Virus record (IMG/VR): IMGVR_UViG_3300042864_000650
Location: 1-46,137 of that record
Origin: a virus
Length of the DNA stretch: 46,137 bases
Reading direction: 5' to 3' (one strand)
The number at the start of each line of letters is the position of its first letter. Within the stretch, counting starts at the first letter, position 1. Below are positions 18,145 to 30,718 of the stretch, piece by piece. The position numbers and the translations under genes were made by a program. The notes under the pieces are model-generated. The model was not told where the DNA came from. It made no database searches and saw nothing but the letters and a program-made list of their open reading frames with translations.

Positions 18145-18150
18145 GTACCA

Positions 18151-18156: not shown

Positions 18157-18159
18157 CAA

Positions 18160-18175: not shown

Positions 18176-18213
18176 ATTTGAGAATAGGGCTACAAAATTT
18201 GGATTTTTCAGTT

Positions 18214-18246: not shown

Positions 18247-18259
18247 TTGCTGAGTACTG

Positions 18260-18313
18260 GGGGGTGGACCCTGCCAACTACCCCCGTGAAAGTGCCCCCC
18301 TAACCATGGGGGG
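18260..18313 (-). ncRNA. Structured leader, two GC hairpins
   Basis: No gene lies between 18176 and 18366. The promoter at 18321-18353 would start RNA near 18314. The first bases then form CCCCCC-AUGGUUA-GGGGGG (18313-18295), followed by an ~8-bp stem (18285-18260, one G-U pair). The transcript would run through parS into the ART/ParB operon. It may be a 5' UTR, attenuator or independent small RNA; only the pairing is directly seen. Confidence 0.45.
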
Positions 18314-18320
18314 TACTCTC

Positions 18321-18353
18321 ATCTTATCACAGCCGAGGCTGTTGCTTGGGGTA
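18321..18353 (-). promoter_or_regulatory. Array promoter element without adjacent ATG
   Basis: TACCCC, 21 nt, TAAGAT in canonical spacing, but the expected +1 (18314) begins a hairpin instead of a start codon. It is the only well-preserved copy not leading directly into an ORF. Confidence 0.7.
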
Positions 18354-18366
18354 GGGGGGGGTACCC

Positions 18367-19101
18367 CTAGTCAATGCTCACTGTGAATGTGACGTCTCCG
18401 AGGGTGTCCCGCACCTTGTCGCTGAAGTCGTAGTCGCTGATGATGCTCTCAACGGCGCTGGAGAAGTCGTAAGACTCGGTCACCTCTTCGGCAGAAGTGA
18501 TGAAGTCTCCATTCTCAATGATGCCTTCGCAGATGCTCTCAATCTCGCTGGTGACCTGTGAGAGCACCTGAGAGGAAATGAGTGTGATGAGTTGGGCGAC
18601 AATGTCGCTGATGGCTGTTGCTGTGGTGGTGGTTGTTTCCATAACTCCATCGTAGGCGCTAGGGGGGGTCTCCATGGGGTAGGGGGTCGGCGCCGCATTT
18701 ACTTGTACTGTGCAACTAGATGTTTCACGTGAAACATTCTCAGGGCTACCAAGTTCCACGTGCTCACGTGAGGGGGATGGGGGCAGGGTTTCACCACGTA
18801 CACGTGCATTCAGTATTGCTACACGCTCAGTAGGCATCCATGCATCCAGCGTATCTATGCGTACGCCCACCATATCCTCGCCCACCTCTAGGAAGGTTCC
18901 CGACTGTAAAGCATTCGCCCATGCATATGACTCTTCAGCCTGACGGAGCATCTGCCCAGCCAATTCCATAGAGCCAGCATCAGCCAGTTTCCCAGCCACA
19001 TCTAGGTAATACTCCCCAGCCACCCATACATGGTGACCTAGTGAGTATCCACCCATGTAGTAGTGGCGTGTCGTGTTGTGTGTTGTCGTGTCGTTGTTCA
19101 T
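18367..19101 (-). CDS. Fused two-cassette protein (244 aa)
   Basis: The N-terminal part (1 to ~115) contains helices such as LADAGSMELAGQMLRQAEES; the C-terminal part from Met154 is acidic and helical (ISDIVAQLITLISS, then SDYDFSDKVRDTLGD). A complete array promoter (18649-18681) lies inside the gene exactly 6 nt before the in-frame ATG at 18642. This ORF is therefore probably two cassettes that lost the stop between them, and a 91-aa internal product (18367-18642) may be made separately. A second perfect parS encodes NVSRET within it. Function unknown. Confidence 0.7.
   Translation of the reverse strand: MNNDTTTHNTTRHYYMGGYSLGHHVWVAGEYYLDVAGKLADAGSMELAGQMLRQAEESYAWANALQSGTFLEVGEDMVGVRIDTLDAWMPTERVAILNARVRGETLPPSPSREHVELGSPENVSRETSSCTVQVNAAPTPYPMETPPSAYDGVMETTTTTATAISDIVAQLITLISSQVLSQVTSEIESICEGIIENGDFITSAEEVTESYDFSSAVESIISDYDFSDKVRDTLGDVTFTVSID
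18649..18681 (-). promoter_or_regulatory. Array promoter element inside a coding region
   Basis: TACCCC, 21 nt, TACGAT, 6 nt, then ATG at 18642. It is embedded in the 244-aa ORF and drives a predicted in-frame 91-aa product. Confidence 0.7.
18721..18736. promoter_or_regulatory. parS: Second perfect parS site
   Basis: TGTTTCACGTGAAACA again with no mismatch, 561 bp from the first site, inside the 244-aa ORF. Nearby CACGTG-centred half-palindromes (CTCACGTGAG at 18763-18772, TTCCACGTG at 18754-18762) may be weak extra sites. Two perfect copies so close are unlikely by chance. Confidence 0.9.
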
Positions 19102-19107
19102 GTCTTC

Positions 19108-19140
19108 ACCTTAGTCGTGTCGTGTCGTGTCCGTGGGGTA
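19108..19140 (-). promoter_or_regulatory. Array promoter for 19101
   Basis: TACCCC, 21 nt, TAAGGT, 6 nt, ATG. The transcript is predicted to be leaderless. Confidence 0.8.
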
Positions 19141-19159
19141 GGGGTGGCGTGTCGCCGCG

Positions 19160-19432
19160 CTAGTCCAGCAATCCCATGTACTCTAGGTCGTCCATCGTGG
19201 ATGCATATCCATCTAGGTCGTCTCCCAGCAAGTCTGCCAATAGTCCACGTGCCTCTGCTCTGCTGTCTGCTGTGCAGTGGCTGGTCTCGTAGTCGGAGCC
19301 ATCAAAGGCTTTGCACCCTTTGGCGCTGAAGTCTTTGGCGACTTTGGAGTAGGTGGTGCCCATCTCCTGTGCCACCTCATGGAGCGTTTCGTTCTCCCAA
19401 GGTTCTCCGCAATTCCTGCAATGTATGTCCAT
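19160..19432 (-). CDS. Zinc-finger-like conserved actinophage protein
   Basis: From the ATG at 19432 the 90-aa product begins MDIHCRNCGEPWENETLHEV and then has EMGTTYSKVAKDFSAKGC, SHCTADSR and an acidic end. The CRNCGEPW knuckle at the very start is shared by a family common in actinobacterial phages; function unknown. A GTG at 19471 extends the frame, but it lies upstream of the transcription start predicted from the promoter at 19472-19504, so the ATG is preferred. Confidence 0.7.
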   Translation of the reverse strand: MDIHCRNCGEPWENETLHEVAQEMGTTYSKVAKDFSAKGCKAFDGSDYETSHCTADSRAEARGLLADLLGDDLDGYASTMDDLEYMGLLD

Positions 19433-19471
19433 GTCGTTGTGCCCTTTCAGTTGGCGCTGGTTGATATCCAC

Positions 19472-19504
19472 ACCTTAGCCCACCCTCCCCACGTGCATGG
19501 GGTA
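19472..19504 (-). promoter_or_regulatory. Array promoter for 19432
   Basis: TACCCC, 21 nt, TAAGGT. Predicted +1 near 19465 leaves a ~33-nt leader with GAAAGGG before the ATG at 19432, so this copy is not leaderless. Confidence 0.75.
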
Positions 19505-19531
19505 GGGGGTGCTGTGTGGTGTGTCGTGTCG

Positions 19532-19924
19532 CTATCCGTACGTCACTTCACCGAGGATGGCGTACTGGAGCACCATGTCGCCGTCACTGGCGTCCATGTC
19601 ATCCCAGCGTACCCACGGGCACTGCTTCAGGATAGCCTCCACACCTTTCACGATGTCATTGGCTGTTAGCGCCTTCATGATTACCTTGGCATCTTCATCC
19701 GTGTCATAGGTGTTGGGGTCAGCAATAGCCAACTTGACGTAGATAGCGTCAGGGTCATATGGGGTGATATCCCAATCACAGCCTGATGCATACATGGGGG
19801 CAGAGCGCCACCAGTCGTAGCCAGCCTCGTCCCAGCCTGAGCCAAGAACGCTACTCATGAGTTCCTGTGTGGGTACTGGCAATGCCAGTGTTGTGTGGTG
19901 TGTGGTGTGTTGTGTCGTTGTCAT
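19532..19924 (-). CDS. Hypothetical acidic phage protein (130 aa)
   Basis: It has a Thr/His-rich head (MTTTQHTTHHTT), then acidic Trp-rich segments (WDEAGYDWWRSAPMY, PWVRWDDMDASDGDMV) and a C-terminus LQYAILGEVTYG. That ending matches the end of the 112-aa protein at 21005-21343 (WQYGFFGDVQYS), so the two appear related. Function unknown; the charge would fit a protein or DNA-mimic interaction. Confidence 0.65.
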   Translation of the reverse strand: MTTTQHTTHHTTLALPVPTQELMSSVLGSGWDEAGYDWWRSAPMYASGCDWDITPYDPDAIYVKLAIADPNTYDTDEDAKVIMKALTANDIVKGVEAILKQCPWVRWDDMDASDGDMVLQYAILGEVTYG

Positions 19925-19930
19925 GGTCTC

Positions 19931-19963
19931 ATCTTAGGGTGTGGTGTGTCGTTGCGTGGGGTA
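19931..19963 (-). promoter_or_regulatory. Array promoter for 19924
   Basis: TACCCC, 21 nt, TAAGAT, 6 nt, ATG; begins directly after the upstream TGA stop. Confidence 0.8.
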
Positions 19964-19968
19964 GGGGG

Positions 19969-20292
19969 TCAGATGTTGAAGAACACGTACCCGTTGGTCT
20001 CCCAGTAGTCATGCTGGAGGTCACGTGCATATGCTTCGTAGTCAATGTAATGCGCTAGGTGGTCGGGCACGTCCATCGTTTCGTCAAATAGGTGCTCTGC
20101 AAACTTCAGGAAGTTACGCCAGCATCCACGGTATGAGTCCATGAAACCTGACACCTCTGACTCATAGTCTTTGGTGATGTGATGGTTCTCACAATAGATA
20201 ATGAATGCATCGTGGTCAATTCCGTGGTCAGTGCATAGCGCCTGTACCTCTTCGTTGTCAGCAATGTGAATGAATGTCTGTGTCGTTGTCAT
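19969..20292 (-). CDS. ArdA-like antirestriction protein, short
   Basis: The 107-aa acidic protein contains GFMDSYRGCWRNFLKFAEHL and, further on, AHYIDYEAYARDLQHDYW followed by GYVFFNI. These match the C-terminal half of ArdA antirestriction proteins (YxGxx....FAE, YIDYxxYARDL, VF). ArdA mimics bent B-DNA to block type I restriction enzymes. Normal ArdA is about 165 aa, so this form lacks most of the N-terminal domain. The dimer interface lies in the conserved C-terminal part. Confidence 0.75.
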   Translation of the reverse strand: MTTTQTFIHIADNEEVQALCTDHGIDHDAFIIYCENHHITKDYESEVSGFMDSYRGCWRNFLKFAEHLFDETMDVPDHLAHYIDYEAYARDLQHDYWETNGYVFFNI

Positions 20293-20450
20293 GGCTTCAC
20301 TTTACCAGTCGGGGTAGTTGTGCGTGGGGTAGGGGTGCTGGGGTGTGTCGCCTTGCGATGTGCTTTCACGGTGCATTTGTGGCATGGTAAGACAGTGAAG
20401 TACCCTAGTGGGTCATGGTGTCCACAGGTGGCTGTGAGTTTCTTAGTCAT
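20289..20450 (-). CDS. Small Cys/His protein read through a promoter
   Basis: The 53-aa ORF starts MTKKLTATCGHHDPLGYFTV and has LPCHKCTVKAHRK, a possible zinc site. Its last ~15 codons (STPTPRTTTPTGKVKP) are the translated promoter of the next gene, ending at an ATGA overlap with it. The stop seems to have been lost so that the cassette boundary became coding. The start overlaps the stop of the 48-aa gene by 8 bp. Confidence 0.55.
   Translation of the reverse strand: MTKKLTATCGHHDPLGYFTVLPCHKCTVKAHRKATHPSTPTPRTTTPTGKVKP
20299..20331 (-). promoter_or_regulatory. Array promoter for 20292
   Basis: TACCCC, 21 nt, TAAAGT, 6 nt, ATG; lies wholly inside the 3' end of the 53-aa ORF. Confidence 0.8.
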
Positions 20451-20589
20451 GTGTGTCGTCCTCTGTTGTGTCGGGCACACCAGCGAGTTCTAGCGCCTCT
20501 TCGTGTGTCATGTCCATGTTGTTGATACGTGCAATGCCATAGGCGAGTACCCGTGACATTGCGTTGCTGAAGTCGTTGTCGTTGTTCAT
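20443..20589 (-). CDS. Small helical protein (48 aa)
   Basis: The ORF starts MNNDNDFSNAMSRVLAYGIA, then MTHEEALELAGVPDTTED, an acidic helical miniprotein. The ATG is 6 nt from a canonical TAAGGT, within an ATGA overlap with the upstream gene. Function unknown. Confidence 0.65.
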   Translation of the reverse strand: MNNDNDFSNAMSRVLAYGIARINNMDMTHEEALELAGVPDTTEDDTHD

Positions 20590-20960
20590 ACAATCACCTT
20601 AGCCGTTGAGTCGCCTGTGCATGGGGTAGGGGGGTGAGCCTCCAGCCATTGGCACAGCCAGCGCACAGCATCGTCAGGGCAATCGTTGTATGTGTCGTAG
20701 TCAATGGGGTTGCCGTTGTCGTAGCGTGACCTGTCGCCGTCTAGTTCCCAGCGTGTCCCGTAGGTGGTGGTGGTGTCGTCATAATACTCATCAGCGTCTG
20801 CCACCTCTCCGATAGTCCAATGCTCTCCAGCGATAGTGGTATTGTAGGCACGTCCCATAGACCAGCCGTAACCAGCATTCTTATTGAGCGTGAATGTTAC
20901 ACGTTCGCCATTGCAGTAGTCGTAGATAATCTTGGGGGTTTGGGTCTTGTTCGTTGTCAT
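20586..20960 (-). CDS. Acidic hypothetical protein (124 aa)
   Basis: Asp/Tyr/Thr-rich, with NKNAGYGWSMGRAYNTTIAG, IGEVADADEYYDD and a Trp pair, WLCQWLEAH. The C-terminal PPTPCTGDSTAKVIV is the next gene's promoter read in frame up to an ATGA overlap. Strong net negative charge fits a nucleic-acid mimic or inhibitor, which is speculative. Confidence 0.65.
   Translation of the reverse strand: MTTNKTQTPKIIYDYCNGERVTFTLNKNAGYGWSMGRAYNTTIAGEHWTIGEVADADEYYDDTTTTYGTRWELDGDRSRYDNGNPIDYDTYNDCPDDAVRWLCQWLEAHPPTPCTGDSTAKVIV
20596..20628 (-). promoter_or_regulatory. Array promoter for 20589
   Basis: TACCCC, 21 nt, TAAGGT, 6 nt, ATG; translated as the tail of the 124-aa gene. Confidence 0.8.
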
Positions 20961-20966
20961 ATCTGT

Positions 20967-20999
20967 ACCTTAGTCGTTGTCAGTTGTGTGCGTGGGATA
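20967..20999 (-). promoter_or_regulatory. Array promoter for 20960 (TATCCC variant)
   Basis: TATCCC instead of TACCCC, then 21 nt, TAAGGT, 6 nt, ATG. The only strong copy with a change in the hexamer. Confidence 0.75.
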
Positions 21000-21004
21000 G
21001 GGGG

Positions 21005-21343
21005 TCATGAGTATTGCACGTCACCAAAGAAACCGTACTGCCACACGTAGTTACGCTCATGTGAGTCTGACTCCATGCGTATGAGTTCTTGTGTCTCTTC
21101 CTGTGAGTGTGCCAGTGCATACAACCTGAGTCCACGTAGTAGTGTCTCTGTGTCGTATGTGAGAATGTCACCGTTCTCATACCTGAACCATAGGTCACCA
21201 TCGCCTGTGGAGTTGTTGTGTGTGTCGTACTCCCCAGCCCAGTGGCGAGTACCATCGTTGTTCTTCATGAAGCGTACCCAGTCGCCTGTGACGATTAGGG
21301 AATACTCTATCTTTACTTCATAGCGTGTCATTGTCGTTGTCAT
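21005..21343 (-). CDS. Hypothetical phage protein (112 aa)
   Basis: Strand-rich N-terminus (MTRYEVKIEYSLIVTGDWVR), a FRYENGDILTYDTET segment and a helical end closing with YVWQYGFFGDVQYS. The ending matches the 130-aa protein at 19532-19924. A second Met four codons in (MTRYEVK) is possible, but the promoter spacing favours the first ATG. Function unknown. Confidence 0.65.
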   Translation of the reverse strand: MTTTMTRYEVKIEYSLIVTGDWVRFMKNNDGTRHWAGEYDTHNNSTGDGDLWFRYENGDILTYDTETLLRGLRLYALAHSQEETQELIRMESDSHERNYVWQYGFFGDVQYS

Positions 21344-21349
21344 ACTCTT

Positions 21350-21382
21350 ACCTTAGTTGTTGTAGTGGTCGTGCGTGGGGTA
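21350..21382 (-). promoter_or_regulatory. Array promoter for 21343
   Basis: TACCCC, 21 nt, TAAGGT, 6 nt, ATG; follows the structured noncoding segment rather than a stop codon. Confidence 0.8.
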
Positions 21383-21643
21383 GGGGGGATAGTCGTATGT
21401 TTCACACTTCGTCTGCGTGACCATTGGTGGCTCTACCTGCCACCCTCGTATTATCTGACCATACTTGTCAGGCTGACACTTTATCCTCCCTGCCAGCAAA
21501 TGGGATGTTAGGTGAATATCTCTCGTCACGCCCTAACGTATGACTTACTCAGGCGATATTCTGCCTGTACCTAGTTACCATACCTCCCACAACCTCTAGG
21601 TCGGCTGTGGGAGGTCTTAGGGGTTTGTATCGCCCTAAGAACT
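21383..21643 (-). ncRNA. Candidate structured RNA, six hairpins
   Basis: This 261-bp stretch has no convincing ORF yet carries consecutive inverted repeats. On the minus strand, in order: CTTAGGG/CCCTAAG (21639-21616); CCTCCCACA/TGTGGGAGG (21614-21583) with inner ACCT/AGGT; CAGGC/GCCTG; GTTAGG/CCTAAC with inner GTGA/TCAC; TGTCAG/CTGACA; GGTGGC/GCCACC. It lies between the stop of the 75-aa gene and the next array promoter, where every other junction is only ~45 bp. It could be an untranslated RNA or a long 3' UTR. No known RNA family is recognised, and strand is inferred. Confidence 0.5.
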
Positions 21644-21871
21644 TTATTGGTCTTGGCATTGGTGCGTGGTGTACCTACTCAGCGCCGTCATGATGGAGTG
21701 TGCCTCTTGAATGTTTGTAGTGAAGAATGAGATGTCTGCCTTACCTATGTTGATAGTGACGATAGCAAAGTTGCCAAAGTCTCTAACGTCAGTAGAGATG
21801 TGTGATGTCTCCACGTCATGGAAAGATATTCCCGTTAGTCGTGGTGGTGTTGTTGTTGTTTCGTTGTTCAT
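21644..21871 (-). CDS. Hypothetical protein (75 aa)
   Basis: Begins MNNETTTTPPRLTGISFHDV and contains strands FGNFAIVTINIGKADISFF plus a helix HSIMTALSRYT, a compact alpha/beta miniprotein. Thr/Asn-rich first codons follow the ATGAxxAACGA start context common to the array. Function unknown. Confidence 0.65.
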   Translation of the reverse strand: MNNETTTTPPRLTGISFHDVETSHISTDVRDFGNFAIVTINIGKADISFFTTNIQEAHSIMTALSRYTTHQCQDQ

Positions 21872-21877
21872 GTTCTT

Positions 21878-21910
21878 ATCTTACTTTCTTGTTGTTGTCT
21901 GCGTGGGGTA
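21878..21910 (-). promoter_or_regulatory. Array promoter for 21871
   Basis: TACCCC, 21 nt, TAAGAT, 6 nt, ATG. Confidence 0.8.
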
Positions 21911-21915
21911 GGGGG

Positions 21916-22326
21916 TCAGTAGAGACCTAGTTCCTCACGCTCTTCCTCTGATACGGCAGTCAGGGTAGTGTTACTGCCCATGCTGTCGTGGTGCGATAGG
22001 GAATACTCAATACGGTCATCGTATGGCGTGTAGCGCATCATCCAGTCGCTGTTCACGGTCATGCCAGCCACAATGTTCTGTGCCTCTACCCACGGTTTGT
22101 CTGTGGGTTGAACGTAGAAGTATCCGCTATGGTTACCATCCCATAGTCCTATGTTGGTCACTCTCCACCAGCCTGTGTCATTGCTGTTGAGAAACTTCTC
22201 ATTGACGTTGTAGAAGTCATTGACGTTGTCCTCCCAACAATAGCCGTAACAACTTGTGTAGTCGGCTTCGTTGTCACACGTGCATTGGTTGGTCAGTTCG
22301 TATTTGGTTGTTATGTCGTTGCTCAT
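21916..22326 (-). CDS. Hypothetical Cys/Trp-rich protein (136 aa)
   Basis: N-terminal Cys cluster (QCTCDNEADYTSCYGYCW) followed by DTGWWRVTNIGLWDGNHSG and YFYVQPTDKPWVEAQ. The C-terminus is acidic with EEEREELGLY. The Cys cluster could bind metal. The GYFxxxxxxPW segment loosely recalls the 137-aa protein at 24813-25226. Function unknown. Confidence 0.65.
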   Translation of the reverse strand: MSNDITTKYELTNQCTCDNEADYTSCYGYCWEDNVNDFYNVNEKFLNSNDTGWWRVTNIGLWDGNHSGYFYVQPTDKPWVEAQNIVAGMTVNSDWMMRYTPYDDRIEYSLSHHDSMGSNTTLTAVSEEEREELGLY

Positions 22327-22332
22327 AGTTCT

Positions 22333-22365
22333 ACTTTAGTTGTTGTGGGTGGTGTGCATGGGGTA
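22333..22365 (-). promoter_or_regulatory. Array promoter for 22326
   Basis: TACCCC, 21 nt, TAAAGT, 6 nt, ATG. Confidence 0.8.
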
Positions 22366-22370
22366 GGGGG

Positions 22371-22763
22371 TCACCACTTGCGTTGCCAGTCTTCGCCCAT
22401 TTGTTCTGTGAGCATTTTCATCTCACGCTTGGTTACGCTTGACACGTCTTTCCAGTTGCTGAACGCACGTGTCATGCCCATTGCCAACCGACAAGCCAGT
22501 TCTGCCCAGTCTTCTAGCGTAGGCTCTTGTTCGTTCTCTTCTTCCTCAGCGTGTGAAGTCTCAATGAGCACGATGGATGTTAGGCACGATGGGCAATAAC
22601 GTCCTCTTACACGCTCGCCCTCTTCATATGCCCAGCCAGTATCGTAGTCATAATGAGTCCACGTACGCTTTGTTAGTGGATGCTTTGCATCGTTGTCATA
22701 GTCGTTACAACCATCGCACTTGTCGTTGGTCTTGCCTGTCTCTGTTATTTGTGTCGTTGTCAT
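22371..22763 (-). CDS. Zinc-ribbon hypothetical protein (130 aa)
   Basis: A treble-clef or ribbon layout is suggested by CDGCNDYDNDAKHPLTK and RGRYCPSCL around residues 17-60. A Glu-rich segment and a helical C-terminus (ELACRLAMGMTRAFSNWKDV) follow. Likely a zinc-binding accessory protein; no family assigned. Confidence 0.65.
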   Translation of the reverse strand: MTTTQITETGKTNDKCDGCNDYDNDAKHPLTKRTWTHYDYDTGWAYEEGERVRGRYCPSCLTSIVLIETSHAEEEENEQEPTLEDWAELACRLAMGMTRAFSNWKDVSSVTKREMKMLTEQMGEDWQRKW

Positions 22764-22769
22764 AATGCC

Positions 22770-22802
22770 ATCTTAGTTGTTAGAGGTGGTGTGCATGGGG
22801 TA
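22770..22802 (-). promoter_or_regulatory. Array promoter for 22763
   Basis: TACCCC, 21 nt, TAAGAT, 6 nt, ATG. Confidence 0.8.
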
Positions 22803-22806
22803 GGGG

Positions 22807-23049
22807 TTAGAGGTGGTCACCGTCTTGGTCTGTGAAGATAAGGTCTTTCATACCGTTGCTACGAAAGTCGTCTTCTACCAATGTTTCCACGTACTCCATG
22901 ACATCGTCATAAGTGACTTCAATGTCAGCATCACCTCTGTTGTCTTCGTGTATGGTGCGTACTATCTCTTCCACGTCATATGTGAACACACGCATGACGT
23001 TGATACGTGTAATTGGGTCTTGTGAGTTGGGGTTGATTATCGTTGTCAT
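22807..23049 (-). CDS. Acidic hypothetical protein (80 aa)
   Basis: Asp/Glu-rich, helical: VMRVFTYDVEEIVRTIHED, YDDVMEYVETLVEDDFRSNG. Strongly negative charge and small size are typical of host-takeover miniproteins, but no family is recognised. Confidence 0.65.
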   Translation of the reverse strand: MTTIINPNSQDPITRINVMRVFTYDVEEIVRTIHEDNRGDADIEVTYDDVMEYVETLVEDDFRSNGMKDLIFTDQDGDHL

Positions 23050-23055
23050 GGCTTT

Positions 23056-23088
23056 ATCTTAGTCATTGTGATGTTGTTGCTAGGGGTA
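23056..23088 (-). promoter_or_regulatory. Array promoter for 23049
   Basis: TACCCC followed by T instead of A, 21 nt, TAAGAT, 6 nt, ATG; overlaps the 3' end of the 148-aa ORF. Confidence 0.8.
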
Positions 23089-23509
23089 GGGGGTCATCGT
23101 AGAACCTGCCTTGCTTCGTGTAGTCCACGTTGCCTAGGTTATTTATCTTGATAGCAAGGTCATACTGTGTGTATGTGATGTCGTTGTATGTGAGGTGTTG
23201 CTTAGGCGCTACGAACGCTGGGGAACATGGGCAACGGCAGTATGCGTATTGGTTCCATTGCATCCTAGAACCGTCAAATGCTAGTCCTGCTTCAGCAAGG
23301 ATGCGTAGTGCGTGTTTCTTGTACTCAACATAGGGACGGCGTGTGCGATTATTGAGATTATCTAAGACAGTCTCTACGCCTTCGTCACCCCACACAGAGA
23401 TACGTGGGCGTACGTTCATGCGAAAGGATGTTGTGTGCCTAGACCACGTGCGTGGTTGAATGTGGATAGTTCCACTTGGTGTTGTAATTGTTATGTCGTT
23501 GTTGCTCAT
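23063..23509 (-). CDS. Hypothetical protein (148 aa)
   Basis: N-terminal strands (ITITTPSGTIHIQPRTW), a helix KKHALRILAEAGLAFDG and a Cys segment YAYCRCPCSPAFVA of possible metal-binding type. The final residues (PLPLATTSQ) are translated promoter sequence of the next gene. The order of strands, helix and CRCPCSP is seen in several actinophage hypothetical proteins; function unknown. Confidence 0.65.
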   Translation of the reverse strand: MSNNDITITTPSGTIHIQPRTWSRHTTSFRMNVRPRISVWGDEGVETVLDNLNNRTRRPYVEYKKHALRILAEAGLAFDGSRMQWNQYAYCRCPCSPAFVAPKQHLTYNDITYTQYDLAIKINNLGNVDYTKQGRFYDDPLPLATTSQ

Positions 23510-23745
23510 GACTTCACCTTAGCCCACCACGTGCGCTTGCTAGGGGTAGGGGTGTTGTACTTGGTGATGGATGTTCCTGTAAGAGCGCCTAACTCAACAA
23601 TAATAGAGTCGTTACCACACTCATACCATTCGTCCAATAGTTTCTGTTCATAGTCATCTAGTGTGTCGGTGTCTACCACAACTACTTGTGGGTCATAGTT
23701 GAGGACTGTGCCTGTCACCATGTCAATAATAATAATGTCGCTCAT
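23506..23745 (-). CDS. Hypothetical protein (79 aa)
   Basis: Acidic alpha/beta protein (MSDIIIIDMVTGTVLNYDPQ, VVVDTDTLDDYEQKLLDEW). The C-terminal TPTPSKRTWWAKVKS is the following promoter read in frame to an ATGA overlap. It is itself ATGA-coupled to the 81-aa gene, so it has no promoter of its own. Confidence 0.65.
   Translation of the reverse strand: MSDIIIIDMVTGTVLNYDPQVVVVDTDTLDDYEQKLLDEWYECGNDSIIVELGALTGTSITKYNTPTPSKRTWWAKVKS
23516..23548 (-). promoter_or_regulatory. Array promoter for 23509
   Basis: TACCCC, 21 nt, TAAGGT, 6 nt, ATG; contained in the 3' end of the 79-aa ORF. Confidence 0.8.
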
Positions 23746-23987
23746 TCGTAGTCCTCTACAATTAGGTGTCCTGCATCGTTTCCCTCTTGGTCTGAACTGA
23801 CGATGGCGTATGTGTTGTCTGTGAACTCAATAACGATGGTATTGACGTAAGCATTGTTGTGTGCACGTTGGTACCAGCCCATGCCATTGACTTCTTCTTC
23901 TACCATGTGGCGAACTCTCTTGATGGTCTTACCAGCGAGTCCCCGTATGGTTGGGTTGAAGTGTTCTATGTGTTTCAGTGTGTTCAT
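23742..23987 (-). CDS. Hypothetical protein (81 aa)
   Basis: Starts MNTLKHIEHFNPTIRGLAGK, then strands VNTIVIEFTDNTYAIVSSDQ. AAAGG lies 8 nt before the ATG, and the ATG also overlaps the TGA of a 20-codon leader ORF, so its translation may be coupled to that leader. Function unknown. Confidence 0.65.
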   Translation of the reverse strand: MNTLKHIEHFNPTIRGLAGKTIKRVRHMVEEEVNGMGWYQRAHNNAYVNTIVIEFTDNTYAIVSSDQEGNDAGHLIVEDYE

Positions 23988-24046
23988 GTTGTTGCCTTTG
24001 TGTTGAGATAGGTGTGGAGTCTTCGCCTGTCAGCCAGTTTCTCCAC
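23984..24046 (-). CDS. 20-aa leader peptide ORF, leaderless GTG
   Basis: GTG at 24046 is exactly 6 nt from the TAAGAT of the array promoter. It encodes MEKLADRRRLHTYLNTKATT before a TGA overlapping the ATG of the 81-aa gene (ATGA). It sits where other array promoters put their main gene. It may be a regulatory leader peptide or a coupling device; the sequence itself has no obvious attenuator codon run. Confidence 0.5.
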   Translation of the reverse strand: MEKLADRRRLHTYLNTKATT

Positions 24047-24052
24047 TCCCAC

Positions 24053-24085
24053 ATCTTAGTTGTTTGGGTGTCTCTCCTAGGGGTA
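24053..24085 (-). promoter_or_regulatory. Array promoter for leader ORF 24046
   Basis: TACCCC, 21 nt, TAAGAT, 6 nt, GTG. Supports GTG as a leaderless start. Confidence 0.8.
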
Positions 24086-24090
24086 GGGGG

Positions 24091-24585
24091 TCACCACGAT
24101 GACTGGTAAGAGAACTCCCAAGCCCATCCACTAGTGTCTGACAGAGTAGGGTCATTCAATAGTTGTTCAAGGGTAAGAGCCGTGTAGAGAACGTCATTGT
24201 AGTAATGTTCATCAAAACTGGTATCACCAAAGAAGAAACCTGATGTAGTTGGTAACACTTCTTCTGCAAAGTCATTGTCACGCTTTGCGTACACTTGCCT
24301 GCAAAGGTCTAGCAATGTTTCTAGGTTCTCTTTGCTAACGTAATATGAACGGCAGTCGTCCTCGCCACCCTGCACGTTGTTCACAAACCAGTTGTGGATT
24401 TGGTTTGCTTTGCGCCACTGTCCTACCTTGATAGTGACTTCAGCAGATGGCATATTGTCAGTAATAAATAAATGTGAAACTTTCAATGCTTTTGCTATCT
24501 CAGCAAAAGTGTTCTTGTCTGTGTCGTTGCTGTGGTCTGCGCCTGAAACGTATTTCTTAGCGGAGAGGTATTGGTCTAATCCCAT
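24091..24585 (-). CDS. Conserved phage protein MGLDxYL family
   Basis: The 164-aa protein shows the hallmarks of a family found in many unrelated phages: MGLDQYLSAKKYVSG, QWRKANQIHNWFVNNVQGG, DDCRSYYVSKENLETLL, PTTSGFFFGDTSFDEHYY. No function is established. The C-terminal TALTLEQLLNDPTL resembles KALTLGQILKNPTF of the 93-aa protein at 25531-25812. AAAAGGA lies 8 nt before the ATG, so this gene has a ~30-nt leader. Confidence 0.8.
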   Translation of the reverse strand: MGLDQYLSAKKYVSGADHSNDTDKNTFAEIAKALKVSHLFITDNMPSAEVTIKVGQWRKANQIHNWFVNNVQGGEDDCRSYYVSKENLETLLDLCRQVYAKRDNDFAEEVLPTTSGFFFGDTSFDEHYYNDVLYTALTLEQLLNDPTLSDTSGWAWEFSYQSSW

Positions 24586-24618
24586 GTCGTTGTCCTTTTG
24601 TTGTGGTTGTTATTAGTT

Positions 24619-24651
24619 ATCTTAGTTGTCGGGTTGGTCGTGCGTGGGGTA
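24619..24651 (-). promoter_or_regulatory. Array promoter for 24585
   Basis: TACCCC, 21 nt, TAAGAT, then a ~28-nt leader containing AAAAGGA. The 3' end of the 63-aa ORF covers it. Confidence 0.75.
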
Positions 24652-24813
24652 GGGGGTCACTAACACTACGTCTGTTTCTAGGTGTGACTCCTTTGTGTCC
24701 ACGCACCATGACTGGTTGGTCTCAAATAGAGCACGTGCTGTGTCCTCATCCTCTGCATCTACTTCGTGTATGTGCTGTGTAATCAGGATATGTGTCATTG
24801 TGTATGTAGGCAT
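24622..24813 (-). CDS. Small hypothetical protein (63 aa)
   Basis: Begins MPTYTMTHILITQHIHEVDA and contains an EDTARALFETN helix, resembling small ferredoxin-like or DpnD/PcfM-like phage peptides that have a strand, then DAEDEDxA. The last residues (TPYPTHDQPDN) are translated promoter sequence. It is TAATG-coupled to the 137-aa gene. Confidence 0.6.
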   Translation of the reverse strand: MPTYTMTHILITQHIHEVDAEDEDTARALFETNQSWCVDTKESHLETDVVLVTPYPTHDQPDN

Positions 24814-25226
24814 TACTTTGTTTCCATTACTGTGTCAATAACTATTTGACATACTTTGTCTAATACGTCTTCAGGCATGCCATCTAAGTACGCAAGGAGG
24901 TTATCTTGTAACCGTTGTCTTAGTTCTTCGGTATCATCAGTAGACACGTAAGCATCTACTTGTATTTCTACATAGTCAGTCCATGGCTCACTGGTCACGA
25001 AGTAACCAATGCGATTTACATATGCCATTCCAGCAACAATAAATGTTCCCTCATCACCATCTACCCACGTCCATACGTTGTTGGCGGGTTGTTGGCGAAC
25101 GAAGTCCTCTTCGGCACCAAAGGTCTCATACATAATGCCATTCCATGATGCGTTAGCGTCTAGGTGGTTGGTAATGGGCTTGTATTGTGCTTCCCATTGG
25201 TCTTCAGTAATTTGTGTGTCGTTCAT
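24813..25226 (-). CDS. Hypothetical phage protein (137 aa)
   Basis: Contains NNVWTWVDGDEGTFIVAGMA, YVNRIGYFVTSEPW and an acidic helical end (LQDNLLAYLDGMPEDVLDKV). The W-x-W-x-D-G-D / VNRxGYxxTxxPW layout is recurrent in phage accessory proteins of unknown function. Confidence 0.65.
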   Translation of the reverse strand: MNDTQITEDQWEAQYKPITNHLDANASWNGIMYETFGAEEDFVRQQPANNVWTWVDGDEGTFIVAGMAYVNRIGYFVTSEPWTDYVEIQVDAYVSTDDTEELRQRLQDNLLAYLDGMPEDVLDKVCQIVIDTVMETK

Positions 25227-25232
25227 GTTCTT

Positions 25233-25265
25233 ATCTTAGTTTGGTGTGTGTATCTGCGTGGGGTA
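25233..25265 (-). promoter_or_regulatory. Array promoter for 25226
   Basis: TACCCC, 21 nt, TAAGAT, 6 nt, ATG. Confidence 0.8.
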
Positions 25266-25279
25266 GGGGTAAGACCTCT

Positions 25280-25338
25280 GAGGAATGCTCCGCTACTACC
25301 ATAGGGCAACGACGAACTATGGGAGCGAAGCATCCCTC
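25280..25338 (-). other. Long imperfect stem-loop in intergenic DNA
   Basis: Between the 61-aa gene and the next array promoter, GAGGGATGCTTCGCT then CCCATAG pairs with CTATGG and AGCGGAGCATTCCTC around a 12-nt loop, with a few bulges. It has no T tract. It could protect the 3' end of the upstream mRNA, terminate, or be a processing site. Confidence 0.5.
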
Positions 25339-25345
25339 ACAGGAC

Positions 25346-25531
25346 TCACCATTCATAACGGCGAATAGTGTTCATCAGTAATGCACCAATGAAGCATAGG
25401 AAGAGACCAAACACACCCCACCATATGGAGGCTTTCTCAATGGTGAAACCCAGTGCAATGCCTATGGTGTAAAGAACAACAATGGTTTTCTTCTTGGCAC
25501 GTGTCCACTTAGCCCAGTTAGTAACGTGCAT
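25346..25531 (-). CDS. Small two-helix membrane protein (61 aa)
   Basis: Basic head (MHVTNWAKWTRAKKK) followed by two hydrophobic helices, IVVLYTIGIALGFTI and WWGVFGLFLCFIGALLM, ending RRYEW. The positive-inside pattern is clear. TAATG-coupled to the 93-aa gene. Function unknown; possibilities include superinfection exclusion or membrane remodelling. Confidence 0.65.
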   Translation of the reverse strand: MHVTNWAKWTRAKKKTIVVLYTIGIALGFTIEKASIWWGVFGLFLCFIGALLMNTIRRYEW

Positions 25532-25812
25532 TAGAAATCAGCCTCTACTAACTCATAGCCCATAGGGAAGTCAATGTACCATTCATCTGATACAGAGAAC
25601 GTGGGGTTTTTTAGTATCTGCCCAAGTGTAAGAGCCTTTAGAAGAGCCTCTTGTTCGTTGTTGTCAAAATAGAAGAAGATGCTGTCATCTTCTACGCCGT
25701 ATGAGTCATGCTTTATGTCTGTCTCATAATCGTATGTGCCAAACGAAATGTAAAAGTATTCAGGGTCTTCATTGCCCCAAATAACATGGCAGTTTATTCC
25801 TTTGTAATTCAT
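25531..25812 (-). CDS. Hypothetical protein related to 24091 C-terminus
   Basis: The 93-aa protein (MNYKGINCHVIWGNEDPEYF) ends with KALTLGQILKNPTF, resembling the end of the MGLDxYL-family protein nearby. The two may share a C-terminal binding element. A GAGGT ribosome site sits 7 nt before the ATG. Confidence 0.65.
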   Translation of the reverse strand: MNYKGINCHVIWGNEDPEYFYISFGTYDYETDIKHDSYGVEDDSIFFYFDNNEQEALLKALTLGQILKNPTFSVSDEWYIDFPMGYELVEADF

Positions 25813-26078
25813 TGTGTTACCTCTACATGTACTCTACTGCGTAGCATTGTTGTGCGTGGGGTAGGGGGGTTTGTTGGGCGTGTAGCACGTACAACATGAA
25901 ACCCCTGACCCCATTGAGTGTCGTCTTCTGCAATTACTTCGTTGTACTCCACTACTTTCCCATCTTCGTGGTCAATGAACACCATAAGGTCACCATTACG
26001 GTCAAGGTGTACGCCAATGTACCAATCGTCAATGTGCATGTACGTGGTGTCATTCTTTTGGATAATGTTGTTATTCAC
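25809..26078 (-). CDS. Hypothetical protein (89 aa)
   Basis: Starts MNNNIIQKNDTTYMHIDDWY (GTG at 26078, overlapping the stop of the upstream gene as GTGAATAA; a TTG at 26090 is the alternative). It has strands WYIGVHLDRNGDLMVFIDHE and a tail (RPTNPPTPRTT and on) made of translated promoter DNA up to an ATGA overlap. Function unknown. Confidence 0.55.
   Translation of the reverse strand: MNNNIIQKNDTTYMHIDDWYIGVHLDRNGDLMVFIDHEDGKVVEYNEVIAEDDTQWGQGFHVVRATRPTNPPTPRTTMLRSRVHVEVTQ
25831..25863 (-). promoter_or_regulatory. Array promoter for 25812
   Basis: TACCCC, 21 nt, TAGAGT, then a ~12-nt leader with GAGGT before ATG. It is translated as the 3' end of the preceding ORF. Confidence 0.75.
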
Positions 26079-26256
26079 TGTATTCCACAACTTCCCATGG
26101 GCTGTCCCATCCTACGGAACCATCACAGTCTTCTGACTTCAGTTGGTCATCGTCATAGGAGTGGTAGATGTTCTCTGCCTCTTCTGCTGACTCTGCCTCA
26201 ATCACATACATGTGACTAACATTCTCTGTTACATAAACTGCATATTGCTTTTTCAT
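26071..26256 (-). CDS. Small acidic protein (61 aa)
   Basis: From the TAATG-coupled ATG at 26256 the product begins MKKQYAVYVTENVSHMYVIE, then AESAEEAENIYHSYDDDQL. It is a strand-strand-helix miniprotein of the type YxVxxxxxxxYxVEAxSxEEAE seen in many phages. A longer in-frame extension overlaps the upstream gene and was rejected. Confidence 0.65.
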   Translation of the reverse strand: MKKQYAVYVTENVSHMYVIEAESAEEAENIYHSYDDDQLKSEDCDGSVGWDSPWEVVEYSE

Positions 26257-26468
26257 TAGAAATCCATTTCTTCGGGTGGGTGTAGTTTGTCTGCATAACG
26301 CTCTAGGTTCCATTCGTATTGACCTGATGCCATGTAGTGTTGTTCGGTTGCTGTTTCGTCATCTTCTTTCCACGAAAGATAATCCATCTTGTAATCGTGT
26401 GAAGCACCGTATTGTTCTTCTACGTCTGCCAACATGTTGGCGTAGTCTTGTTCATCTTGTTCTGACAT
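26256..26468 (-). CDS. Acidic hypothetical protein (70 aa)
   Basis: Asp/Glu/Tyr-rich (MSEQDEQDYANMLADVEEQY; LSWKEDDETATEQHYMASGQ). TAATG overlaps on both sides place it in an operon with the 107-aa and 61-aa genes. Function unknown. Confidence 0.65.
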   Translation of the reverse strand: MSEQDEQDYANMLADVEEQYGASHDYKMDYLSWKEDDETATEQHYMASGQYEWNLERYADKLHPPEEMDF

Positions 26469-26791
26469 TAGTTGTTCCAGTCTGCTGGAAAGGAGATGGG
26501 TATTTCATATTCCTCATCGTAGTTGGGTACACCATTGACTACGGGATAGGCAAGGCAAACAATGTTTGTAAGGTTACGGCTCACGTAGTTGAGGTCTACC
26601 CTGTCACCAAAGGCATGCCAATGGTCAAGTTCATCGTAGCCGTGGTCTAGGTAAGTCTCTGCCTCTTTACGGTACTCATCCAGCATGGGTTGTAATTTTT
26701 CCTTGATAGCATGCTCAATCGCAAATGAAGTAATCTGCTCAAGGTTGCGCTGGATGTAATGGAATGTGTCTGTGTATTCTTGTGGGGTCAT
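26468..26791 (-). CDS. Hypothetical helical protein (107 aa)
   Basis: Mostly helical start (MTPQEYTDTFHYIQRNLEQI, then IEHAIKEKLQPMLDEYRKEA) and a strand-rich end, NIVCLAYPVVNGVPNYD. First gene of a three-gene TAATG operon under an array promoter. Function unknown. Confidence 0.65.
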   Translation of the reverse strand: MTPQEYTDTFHYIQRNLEQITSFAIEHAIKEKLQPMLDEYRKEAETYLDHGYDELDHWHAFGDRVDLNYVSRNLTNIVCLAYPVVNGVPNYDEEYEIPISFPADWNN

Positions 26792-26797
26792 GTCATT

Positions 26798-26830
26798 ATC
26801 TTAGTTCTTAGAGGGTCTTTGCTAGGGGTA
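26798..26830 (-). promoter_or_regulatory. Array promoter for 26791
   Basis: TACCCC followed by T, 21 nt, TAAGAT, 6 nt, ATG; overlaps the 3' end of the 179-aa ORF. Confidence 0.8.
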
Positions 26831-27347
26831 GGGGGGCATTCATTGCGTGGCGTACTTGTGCTTCACAATCATCTACCAGTATTGTGTACCTTTCGTTCAT
26901 GACGTCCATGAGGTCATCATCTGCTGTTTCTTCGGGGATAGAGATGTCTTCACGTTCTACATGAGCCTGAATACCATTTAGATATCCAGCACATCCCACA
27001 AAGCCCATGCCCATCTCTTCATATGTGATAATAAATGTAAGTTCAGGGAACATAACTGAAATGGACTCAAAACCTACTAGTGGTGGTGCCCATGCAGTAT
27101 CAAATCTAAAAAACACGTAACCCTTATCACGAATAACAAGAGTAGTATCACTATCTTGCCATTTGGTTCCCCAGTTAGATATGTTCCAGTTGTACCAACC
27201 ATCGTCACCGAGGTCTGTGGGTGTGGGTAGTAGCGTGTTGAGAATTGAGTAAGTGTCGTCACCCTCTGTCGTTACTTTGTTGATGAAGTCTTGTACTTCT
27301 TGGTCGTCTCCCTCTACAGAGAGACAGTTGTTTGTCCAGTTTGGCAT
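26808..27347 (-). CDS. Api92-like / DUF1281-type protein
   Basis: The 179-aa protein has MPNWTNNCLSVEGDDQEVQD, LLPTPTDL, NWGTKWQDSD, RFDTAWAPPLVG and FPELTFIITYEEMGMGFVG. This is the characteristic order of the Api92/DUF1281 ferredoxin-like family in phages and plasmids, whose role is unknown. The usual MPNWC cysteine is Thr here. AAGGA lies ~9 nt before the ATG. The last residues are translated promoter sequence. Confidence 0.8.
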   Translation of the reverse strand: MPNWTNNCLSVEGDDQEVQDFINKVTTEGDDTYSILNTLLPTPTDLGDDGWYNWNISNWGTKWQDSDTTLVIRDKGYVFFRFDTAWAPPLVGFESISVMFPELTFIITYEEMGMGFVGCAGYLNGIQAHVEREDISIPEETADDDLMDVMNERYTILVDDCEAQVRHAMNAPLPLAKTL

Positions 27348-27351
27348 GTTG

Positions 27352-27549
27352 TTATTTCCTTGTTTCTTTTATTTTCTCTACAACGTGTAGAGCATCATTT
27401 ATGTGTTCCCACAATGCATCTGTGTCATTAGGTGTATTGTACGTATTTGCTTGTTTATGGGTGTAGGTAACTGACTCTAATGCCTCTAGTGCTCTTAGGA
27501 TTTCAGGTAGACCTACGTATTCGTCAATCGTGAATGTGTTGCTTTTCAT
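27352..27549 (-). CDS. Small helical hypothetical protein (65 aa)
   Basis: From ATG 27549 the product begins MKSNTFTIDEYVGLPEILRA, then helices LEALESVTYTHKQA and LWEHINDALHVVEKIKETRK. The start is set by a TACAGT hexamer 6 nt upstream, part of the divergent promoter pair facing the helicase gene. A longer frame upstream would run through that promoter. Function unknown. Confidence 0.65.
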   Translation of the reverse strand: MKSNTFTIDEYVGLPEILRALEALESVTYTHKQANTYNTPNDTDALWEHINDALHVVEKIKETRK

Positions 27550-27555
27550 AACCCC

Positions 27556-27588
27556 ACTGTAGTATTGGCACCCCACCTCCATGGGGTA
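27556..27588 (-). promoter_or_regulatory. Array promoter for 27549 (divergent partner)
   Basis: TACCCC, 21 nt, TACAGT, 6 nt, ATG. It forms an inverted pair with 27598-27630, giving CCATGGGGTA-C9-TACCCCATGG symmetry between the two promoters. Confidence 0.75.
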
Positions 27589-27597
27589 CCCCCCCCC

Positions 27598-27630
27598 TAC
27601 CCCATGGACAACACCACTAAGAACTAAGGT
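27598..27630 (+). promoter_or_regulatory. Array promoter for 27637 (plus strand)
   Basis: TACCCC, 21 nt, TAAGGT, 6 nt, ATG on the opposite strand. The element follows transcription direction rather than genome position. Confidence 0.8.
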
Positions 27631-27636
27631 ATCGGC

Positions 27637-29520
27637 ATGAACGGAATTACACCAAGGCAACAACGTGACATACATGATGCGTTAGAACAACGTACCAGCC
27701 CACTAGAAATGGTTGGGTGCATTGACAACTGGATTAGCGCAATGGAATTAGAGAAACTGACATTCAAGTCAGCATCCTCATTGCTTGATTACTTGGCATA
27801 TCTGCCAGTAGAGCGCACACCTGCGCTAGCGCACATCCCTGAAGAAGTCACACGCATTATTGTGAACACTGCCAAAGGTAAATGCCATCTCTGTGATGAA
27901 GTAGTCCTTGCTGGTGCAGGGCACAAGGTCTTTCTAAAGGGTGCGTGGCGTACATTTCATGCCGTTGATAAGTGCTCTGCCGTAACTGTCGTACCTGACG
28001 TTACGTATTCTTCAGCGTTGCGTTCTGCACTTGATGAGTTCGTACAAACGTTAGACAAAGTGGTGCCACCGATTATCCCTGACGGAGGTTTATTTACTTT
28101 GTCAAATGCCAAGGATTTTGACCTTGATTTTGACCTACAACTACCTCTCCTTGGTTATCAGAAGTCAGCCATTGAGTTCGTTCGCCGTACACGCCGTACG
28201 TTGGTATGTCAGGACATGGGTCTTGGTAAAACGCCCATCGGCATTGCTGTAGCGCATATGGCTGTCAAGGAAGGTCACAAGGTGATGGTATCCGTACCAC
28301 CAAACCTCGTGTACCAATGGAAAGCAGAACTAAAGAGGTTTGCTCCTTGGCTCAAGGTGTCATCCATCAAGGGTCGTAAGCCATACAAGTTGCCAAAATG
28401 TGACGTGCTGTTAGTGCCCGACTCCATCATTGAGGCTTGGCAGAATGTCCTTGCTGGCAAGTTCACCAGCCTTGTCGTTGATGAGGCTCACCGTTTCAAG
28501 ACTGAGAACAGCAATCGCACTAAAGGCTTGTCCCGTATTGCTACACAGGTTCCCAAGGATGGTTACTGCGTGTTGCTGTCGGGAACCATCATTCCTAACC
28601 GTCCGTCTGAGTTTATTTCTCCGTTGAAGATTATCGGCAGGCTTGACCCAGTGTTCGGTACTAAGAGACAGTTCCTTACCCGTTACTGTGATTACAAGAT
28701 GGTCAATGGGTTTCCTAACACCAGTGGAGCCTCTAACACATCAGAACTAAATGAGATACTGCGCTCCACCGTCTACACACGTACACGCAAGGTGGATGTA
28801 CTGGAAGACCTTCCCCCCAAAAGACGTGCCCAGTTAGACGTTGAGTTGTCTGAGGCATCTATGAACAAGTATCGCAAGGCTGAGGAAGATTTCCTTGCTT
28901 GGGTGATGGAGAACTATGGCAATGATGCGTACATGGCAGCGAGCAAGGCTCCCGTCATTACAGAGATAAATAAACTTAGGCAGTTGCTTGGTGAAGCAAA
29001 GGTAGAGCCAGCATGTGCTCACATCCGTTCATTGCTGGAGGCAGGAGAGCAAGTCATTGCATTTGCGTACCACACCAATGTAATCAACGCCATCAAGGAG
29101 CACTTCAAGAACGATGGAGTTGTCGTAGTTGCTGGTGGCATGACTGCTGAAACAAAGAACAACGCTGTCAATAAGTTCACCAGTGGAGAGGCTCGGTTGT
29201 TCATTGGACAATACGATGCATCAAGCGTAGGACTCAACCTTCAAGTCGCCAGCCACGTGGTCATGGTTGAAATACCATGGTCGCCCAGCGTTGGTGCACA
29301 GGCAGAGGACAGGGCATGGCGCTATGGCGTCAAGAATGCCGTAGTCGCTTGGTGGCTGACAGCCATTGACACTGAGTCACCAACCATTGACGCTCGTATG
29401 TGGGCAATCTGCAATGCTAAACAAGAAACTATCTCTGCTTGCCTTGATGGTTGGGGAGAGGACATGAACGCTGAGGCAGGTAGTGTGACAGCCCTTCTAC
29501 TTTCGGAGATGATGGGGTGA
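27637..29520 (+). CDS. SNF2-family DNA helicase/translocase
   Basis: The 627-aa protein has QxxA...Walker A QDMGLGKTPIGIAVA (~192-206), motif Ia MVSVPPNLVYQWK, DEAH box LVVDEAHRF (~282-285), motif III VLLSGTIIPNRPSEF, and a C-terminal RecA domain with VASHVVMVEIPWSPSVGAQA and EDRAWRYG. This is the SNF2/SMARCAL1-like organisation common in phage replication or recombination genes. Residues ~80-115 hold CHLC plus a later Cys, a possible zinc knuckle. ATG is 6 nt from TAAGGT, so a leaderless mRNA is predicted. Confidence 0.9.
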   Translation: MNGITPRQQRDIHDALEQRTSPLEMVGCIDNWISAMELEKLTFKSASSLLDYLAYLPVERTPALAHIPEEVTRIIVNTAKGKCHLCDEVVLAGAGHKVFLKGAWRTFHAVDKCSAVTVVPDVTYSSALRSALDEFVQTLDKVVPPIIPDGGLFTLSNAKDFDLDFDLQLPLLGYQKSAIEFVRRTRRTLVCQDMGLGKTPIGIAVAHMAVKEGHKVMVSVPPNLVYQWKAELKRFAPWLKVSSIKGRKPYKLPKCDVLLVPDSIIEAWQNVLAGKFTSLVVDEAHRFKTENSNRTKGLSRIATQVPKDGYCVLLSGTIIPNRPSEFISPLKIIGRLDPVFGTKRQFLTRYCDYKMVNGFPNTSGASNTSELNEILRSTVYTRTRKVDVLEDLPPKRRAQLDVELSEASMNKYRKAEEDFLAWVMENYGNDAYMAASKAPVITEINKLRQLLGEAKVEPACAHIRSLLEAGEQVIAFAYHTNVINAIKEHFKNDGVVVVAGGMTAETKNNAVNKFTSGEARLFIGQYDASSVGLNLQVASHVVMVEIPWSPSVGAQAEDRAWRYGVKNAVVAWWLTAIDTESPTIDARMWAICNAKQETISACLDGWGEDMNAEAGSVTALLLSEMMG

Positions 29521-29530
29521 CCCCCCCCCC

Positions 29531-29563
29531 TACCCCATGCAGACACCACTCAACAAGTAAAGT
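29531..29563 (+). promoter_or_regulatory. Array promoter for 29607 (plus strand)
   Basis: A 13-nt C tract interrupted only by T follows the helicase TGA: TACCCC, 21 nt, TAAAGT. The mRNA would have a ~37-nt leader with a GGGGC-AAC-GCCCC hairpin (29574-29586) and AAGGA. Confidence 0.8.
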
Positions 29564-29573
29564 AATAATAACA

Positions 29574-29586
29574 GGGGCAACGCCCC
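29574..29586 (+). promoter_or_regulatory. 5' UTR hairpin of DUF932 gene
   Basis: GGGGC-AAC-GCCCC sits near the predicted 5' end, 20 nt before the ATG at 29607. A 5' stem can stabilise abundant phage mRNAs. Confidence 0.5.
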
Positions 29587-29606
29587 ACAAACATAAGGAA
29601 TATGAA

Positions 29607-30703: not shown

Positions 30704-30718
30704 AACCTTCGGCATGTC

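Follow-up and report, generated by a model that had tools for sequence, protein, structure and literature searches.

The stretch analysed here (the window) is the whole of a 46,137-nucleotide (nt) IMG/VR virus contig, record IMGVR_UViG_3300042864_000650, with tail genes at its left end and two WhiB-like (Wbl) genes; because of these genes the record is most likely an actinobacteriophage. Known phages with a relative of the window's DUF932 protein mostly infect Actinobacteria. Between 18,321 and 29,563, small genes are preceded by a recurring unit made of a C-rich element containing TACCCC, a 21-nt spacer and a TANNNT hexamer of the -10 type. New here is that related phages keep the register and the -10 of this unit and yet differ in the element in every copy, as if it had been replaced as a set between lineages. 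Each unit is very probably a promoter with a lineage-specific element read by a trans-acting factor.

Motif, spacing and chance expectation

A pattern search of the 46-kb window for TACCCC-N21-TANNNT gave 22 exact matches, 21 of them within 18,321-29,563. The array total is nevertheless 22, because a variant unit with TATCCC lies at 20,999-20,967 (-) ahead of an ATG at 20,960, upstream of which it was spotted by reading the sequence. The preliminary description of this DNA, made from its letters, had announced 22 copies and none outside the array: the number stands with one variant among the copies, and the second statement has to be dropped. The sole exact match outside (34,454-34,486, minus strand) lies in coding sequence, without C-tract, without the consensus G and A described below and without a start codon nearby, and appears chance-like. 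In a near-identical contig of 72 kb, all 20 array copies within its span and this outlier were found, and none in the remaining ~56 kb. The array is not an assembly artefact, since near-identical contigs from other samples have the same units.

When spacer lengths from 8 to 35 nt were scanned, enrichment was observed at 21 nt only, each other length giving 0 to 2 matches. Dinucleotide shuffles of the array region contained 0.04 units on average (maximum 1 in 300). The invariant 21-nt spacer described previously is thus well founded, and the proposed check that it might be equally frequent in shuffled sequence turned out in its favour. Orientation always follows gene direction, as had been noted, with a flip between the copies at 27,588 (-) and 27,598 (+). 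We also obtained the same count as before for start codons exactly 6 nt past the -10, namely 17 of 22, made up of 15 exact copies with ATG, the TATCCC copy and the GTG of the 24,085 copy.

The full window element is a C-tract followed by TACCCC-NNG[CG]A, written CCCTACCCCNNG[CG]A; it spans 14 nt, from about -42 to -29. The TACCCC core first described is present, and the invariant core is longer than was thought, as G and A at positions 3 and 5 after TACCCC are found in 21/21 exact copies. Up to 10 C stand ahead of TACCCC in window copies, and the length of this tract differs among near-identical contigs with the spacing of the units unchanged. The C-tract reported ahead of TACCCC is general, except that the 27,588 copy is preceded by G. 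A leave-one-out weight matrix drops this G-tract copy, and with strict pseudocounts it misses the TATCCC copy.

Recognition words in related phages

The relatives examined are 44 viral loci from a DUF932 protein search; the comparison concerns one clade, mostly of fragmentary contigs, and per-lineage copy numbers come from partial genomes. At about 68% DUF932 identity and above, the array plan is common to the relatives with enough flanking sequence. Multiple TACCCC-N21-TANNNT units are found only in contigs near-identical to the window. When the units were aligned on the -10, a 14-nt word proper to each lineage appeared at a constant position, with 16 nt between its end and TANNNT. The word is CCCTACCCCNNG[CG]A in the window, CCCTCCCCCTYGGC in G002, TAGGATTCGTGACT in G005, a C-tract followed mostly by NNAGCA in G003, TAGGATTCG[TC][TC]ACT in L047, AGGATTCGTCCA in L044, TAGGATTTGG[AG]CA in L036 and TAGGATTTGGATG in L038. 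Words of the TACCCC, CCCTCCCCCTYGGC and AGGATTCG/AGGATTTG types thus occupy one register, TAGGATTTGGACA being a further example; just a few promoters were readable in L020, L045 and L063.

Eleven orthologous promoters could be compared between the window and G003. Identity is 72% in the spacer, 98% in the -10 and 76% in the 6-nt leader, and only 68% in the element, which equals that of unrelated promoter pairs (66%). Within one genome, conversely, copies share 77-93% of the element and 29-42% of the spacer; the element rows were gathered with element-based filters, which somewhat raises the within-genome identity and leaves the flank comparison unaffected. Since flanks are conserved in orthologues and the element is uniform within a genome, the flanks seem to be inherited with the gene and the element to be set by the genome. 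For the same reason, a trans-acting factor probably shifted its specificity between lineages. Copying of whole promoters would not explain this pattern, which would be expected from selection by one trans-acting factor.

Leader classes and the -35 position

Leaders were surveyed over 106 units from nine related lineages. The start codon lies 6 nt past the -10 in 69 of them, which therefore look leaderless. In 31 others the leader is at least 18 nt long, and 29 of these 31 contain a Shine-Dalgarno-like site, the background frequency of such sites being 11-20%. Among the remaining units, three have their first qualifying start directly past the -10 and three have no assigned start; none shows a gap of 7-17 nt. 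Transcription starting about 7 nt after TANNNT would produce this split between 6-nt gaps and long Shine-Dalgarno leaders. Leaderless genes, common in Actinobacteria, are reported to be marked by TANNNT about 12 bp ahead of their start codon (PMC3160421), and this is the arrangement found in 69/106 units.

The leader of the DUF932 promoter contains a conserved hairpin, in which stem pairing is kept through two-sided changes in 3 of 4 pairs. At a 17-nt spacing from the -10, which is present in all, the sequence where a -35 would stand is CCNNGC in the window and TGGACA in L036. Most lineages have no TTGACA-like -35 where an activator-free promoter would need one. The sharp leader split, the DUF932 hairpin and the same geometry in relatives with other elements all support the initial reading of a phage -35-region element combined with an actinobacterial-type -10, giving mostly leaderless transcripts.

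Layout of the array and neighbouring features

The array consists of small minus-strand genes, mostly without informative family matches where these were searched. Its direction flips at 27.59 kb to a plus-strand operon for a helicase, the DUF932 protein and Wbl-A. Since several genes of the array overlap the preceding gene and lack a unit of their own, there is one unit for each gene or small operon; the "one promoter per gene" of the preliminary description was broadly right and slightly too strong. The units and the main genes are as follows.

18,321-18,353 (-): unit, TACCCC-N21-TAAGAT, last of the array, then a conserved non-coding stretch
18,649-18,681 (-): unit inside open reading frame 18,367-19,101, in-frame ATG 18,642
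19,108-19,140 (-): unit, ATG after 6 nt
19,472-19,504 (-): unit, clean element and -10, ATC at the start-codon position (only such copy)
19,931-19,963 (-): unit, ATG after 6 nt
20,299-20,331 (-): unit, ATG after 6 nt
20,596-20,628 (-): unit, ATG after 6 nt
20,967-20,999 (-): variant unit (TATCCC), ATG 20,960 after 6 nt
21,350-21,382 (-): unit, ATG after 6 nt
21,878-21,910 (-): unit, ATG after 6 nt
22,333-22,365 (-): unit, ATG after 6 nt
22,770-22,802 (-): unit, ATG after 6 nt
23,056-23,088 (-): unit, ATG after 6 nt
23,516-23,548 (-): unit, ATG after 6 nt
24,053-24,085 (-): unit, GTG after 6 nt; next ATG 23,987 with Shine-Dalgarno-like site
24,619-24,651 (-): unit, 33-nt leader with Shine-Dalgarno site, ATG 24,585
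25,233-25,265 (-): unit, ATG after 6 nt
25,831-25,863 (-): unit, 18-nt leader with Shine-Dalgarno site, ATG 25,812
26,798-26,830 (-): unit, ATG after 6 nt
27,556-27,588 (-): unit, G-tract ahead, divergent partner of the 27,598-27,630 unit
27,598-27,630 (+): unit of the helicase gene, ATG 27,637 after 6 nt
29,531-29,563 (+): unit of the DUF932 gene; hairpin and Shine-Dalgarno site in its 43-nt leader
27,637-29,520 (+): SNF2-type helicase gene, first of the plus-strand operon
29,607-30,638 (+): DUF932 gene, start corrected from 29,517 to 29,607
30,635-31,000 (+): Wbl-A, WhiB-like protein in the operon driven by elements, candidate factor
32,883-33,293 (-): Wbl-B, second WhiB-like protein

As the copy at 19,472-19,504 reads ATC, the gene downstream may start further on (ATGGACATACATTGC). 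The array protein of 19,160-19,471 (minus strand) shows, below threshold, a short match to a portion of sigma region 4 (18 residues, E 0.02), which recurs in G002, and may be a small helix-turn-helix protein. The unit inside the open reading frame 18,367-19,101 (-, 244 aa), together with the in-frame ATG at 18,642, predicts a nested product of 91 aa; in G002 a unit is found in the same context, at 81115. Behind the last unit of the array, the stretch 18,145-18,320 (-) contains no clear gene (GAGAGTACCCCCCATGGTTAGGGGGG...); it is conserved in part in G002 and G005, behind the different elements that these have. This stretch is a candidate small RNA or long leader; an Rfam search of the window returned no RNA family.

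Two exact palindromes TGTTTCACGTGAAACA are present at 18,160-18,175 and 18,721-18,736, for 0.01 expected by chance, and the G002 and G005 records have two to three copies at the corresponding end of the array; we take them to match the parS (ParB-binding) consensus. Three small tandem proteins are encoded at 16,001-17,108 (-), with a ParB/sulfiredoxin-like DGHHR motif recognized by eye; the product of 16,001-16,345, the only one of the three that was searched, has no Pfam match. At 17,836-18,144 (-), a protein matches the PARP catalytic domain below threshold (25.1 bits, cut-off 26.7).

More distant relatives have other promoters before DUF932, and those of L052 and L071 resemble, by eye, an ordinary TTGCAA/TACAAT pair. 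In L048 and L049 the palindrome TGTTCCACGTGGAACA is present in nine and five copies, respectively, over 10-12 kb, including one immediately ahead of the DUF932 gene. It was considered as a third kind of element and rejected, its distance to a -10 not being fixed; these phages may use a palindromic regulatory site instead. The upstream regions examined in REQ1, Trogglehumper, Orchid and Ronaldo, isolated phages with a DUF932 relative, contain other repeats and not this architecture. In Gordonia phage Ronaldo (16,813-21,667, minus strand), about ten small genes are separated by near-constant gaps of ~80 nt. Most of these gaps include an inverted repeat together with a ribosome site of the GAGAGAGGAAAGA type and represent another sort of repeated intergenic unit. 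A near-identity search of a phage collection gave no match to the window.

Proposed mechanism and candidate factor

From these patterns we infer promoter activity, activation rather than repression, and a candidate for the factor. Host RNA polymerase with its main sigma factor would read the -10 (TANNNT at -12 to -7), the usual -35 contact being replaced by the phage-lineage-specific 14-nt element at about -42 to -29. This element would be read by a trans-acting activator placed on or next to sigma region 4. Transcription would start at the A of the ATG in most copies, which would be leaderless, and shortly past the -10 in the others, giving a Shine-Dalgarno leader. About 20 small genes would be switched on together with the helicase/DUF932/Wbl-A operon, and where the preference of the factor changed in evolution, all copies would have changed along. 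The most likely factor would be Wbl-A, which is encoded in an operon driven by two elements, so that a positive feedback is predicted.

No match to the sigma-70 family (regions 2 and 4) exceeded the cut-off in four records, namely the window, the 72-kb contig, G002 and G005, and exactly two WhiB-like proteins were found in each of them. In every array lineage checked, Wbl-A adjoins DUF932. Neither its four cysteines nor its GIWAG turn varies; the phage protein has the four cysteines and G[VI]W turn of a Wbl protein, and it matches WhiB, WhiB1 and WhiB3, which were solved with sigma region 4. The structure model is weak (mean predicted local distance difference test, pLDDT, of 62) and confirms the WhiB fold only. 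Between the first and second cysteine lies a basic, variable stretch, which in our reading would be the counterpart of the Arg-rich DNA-binding motif of WhiB3 (PMC10245118).

Several observations weigh against this picture. Covariation singles out no gene: element similarity tracks general phage relatedness, and because the latter explains the former, identity comparisons do not point to Wbl-A in particular. L036 and L063 share one word with Wbl-A proteins only 54% identical, and the window and L019 differ in word with Wbl-A proteins 84% identical. The G000, G001, G002 and G005 records are possibly incomplete, so that a factor may lie in their unseen parts, and an activator and a repressor would leave the same trace in sequence alone. 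Wbl-A is thus our leading but unproven guess for the protein reading the element, held with somewhat less than even confidence. Whatever the factor, these phages offer a natural experiment in regulon rewriting, as close relatives have the same genes and promoter geometry and different recognition words, and the joint change of a transcription factor and some twenty target sites becomes directly testable.

Alternative explanations

The factor might belong to the host, as an activator, a WhiB-like protein or an alternative sigma, the words differing because hosts differ. As no phage gene tracks the element uniquely, this has some appeal; however, by the patterns used, no C-type unit (and no DUF932 relative) was found in 84,980 bacterial and archaeal genomes, where such a host regulon should have been visible unless the host falls outside this collection, and the -10 is of the main sigma type. 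We consider a host factor rather unlikely. A still smaller chance is given to repression, in which a phage protein would bind the element as its operator and close the promoters, as happens in cluster A immunity. The element does cover the -35 position, and cluster A stoperators provide up to 30 sites that change with the repressor between relatives (PMC6550527). The distance to the -10 is nevertheless fixed in every array copy across nine lineages, which fits contact with polymerase better than blocking, most lineages lack the TTGACA-like -35 needed by an activator-free promoter, and no repressor or integrase was found among the window proteins searched, which were not a full scan.

That each small gene is bounded by a similar stretch could also suggest recombination linkers for the exchange of gene cassettes, with incidental likeness to promoters. 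This is very improbable: the 16-nt spacer, only 29-42% alike between copies, interrupts the shared stretch and makes it poor for homologous exchange, and the split between leaderless and Shine-Dalgarno starts is left unexplained. Hardly more credit can be given, and if anything a little less, to the idea that the C-rich tract acts not as a protein site but by folding, as DNA or RNA, into an unusual structure (G-quadruplex, i-motif). The window copies are indeed C-rich, with their long runs before TACCCC, but relatives have a non-repetitive word (TAGGATTCGTGACT) in the same place, the tract varies in length among near-identical contigs at constant spacing, and RNA is inferred to start only downstream of the element.

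Comparison with known systems

In the open-licence literature we found no array of this geometry, nor a -35-region word exchanged as a set between close relatives, which is not proof of absence. Microbacterium phages of cluster EC have an 18-bp repeated asymmetric intergenic motif, 22-30 bp before the starts of small genes (PMC7302621). That of phage Quhwah was set aside as a match, since its geometry differs: TANNNT-like hexamers are part of the motif, and a Shine-Dalgarno leader comes after it. Quhwah has a sigma factor gene. A regulon of a phage-encoded sigma factor would require such a gene, and none passed the cut-off in the window, the 72-kb contig, G002 and G005. The stoperators of cluster A are likewise numerous asymmetric sites that differ between relatives with their regulator (PMC6550527), and so are a precedent for many sites changing along with it; they are repressor sites, for the most part without a fixed distance to a -10, whereas every array copy is locked at one spacing.

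The nearest actinophage relatives in idea are the extended start-associated sequences (ESAS) of cluster K, which are likewise repeated between genes, contain promoters and stand ahead of small genes, in actinophages that encode a WhiB protein. Each is a 17-bp inverted repeat enclosing SigA -35/-10 hexamers 17-18 bp apart and is linked to a 13-bp start-associated sequence (SAS) at the ribosome site; the consensus varies from one subcluster to another (PMC3203893, PMC11373665). In the array, by contrast, the element is asymmetric, the spacer is not conserved and no inverted repeat surrounds the promoter; SAS is absent, and most starts, 6 nt past the -10, leave no room for its 13 bp. As to the candidate factor, WhiB7 and WhiB3 bind region 4 of sigma-A and touch DNA at the -35 or immediately before it, the -10 of the main sigma being kept, and WhiB7 uses an AT-hook on AT-rich DNA (PMC10245118). 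The array words are instead C-rich or of the AGGATT kind, no AT-hook was seen in Wbl-A, and a Wbl role is here a candidate only.

Middle promoters of phage T4 resemble the array in that, at many promoters, a phage element takes over from the -35 and stands at a set distance from a -10 of the host type, the host sigma being kept (PMC2988021). The MotA box of T4, (a/t)3TGCTTtA, is 9-10 nt long, AT-rich and 12 +/-1 bp from the -10, and is used in sigma appropriation by AsiA and MotA (PMC2988021). The array words (CCCTACCCCNNG[CG]A and the like) are 14 nt long, end exactly 16 nt from the -10 and contain no MotA box; the proteins at hand here are WhiB-like, no search having been made for motA or asiA relatives. 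To our knowledge, leaderless starts are not a feature of T4. By analogy, the array may work like T4 middle promoters with a different word, distance and proteins. We tentatively suggest, as an attractive but doubtful possibility, that a phage WhiB-like protein on host sigma region 4 reads the word replacing the -35. This would be an actinobacterial counterpart of T4 sigma appropriation, with a specificity rewritten several times in one clade and about 20 promoters following, their spacers, -10s and leaders staying in place.

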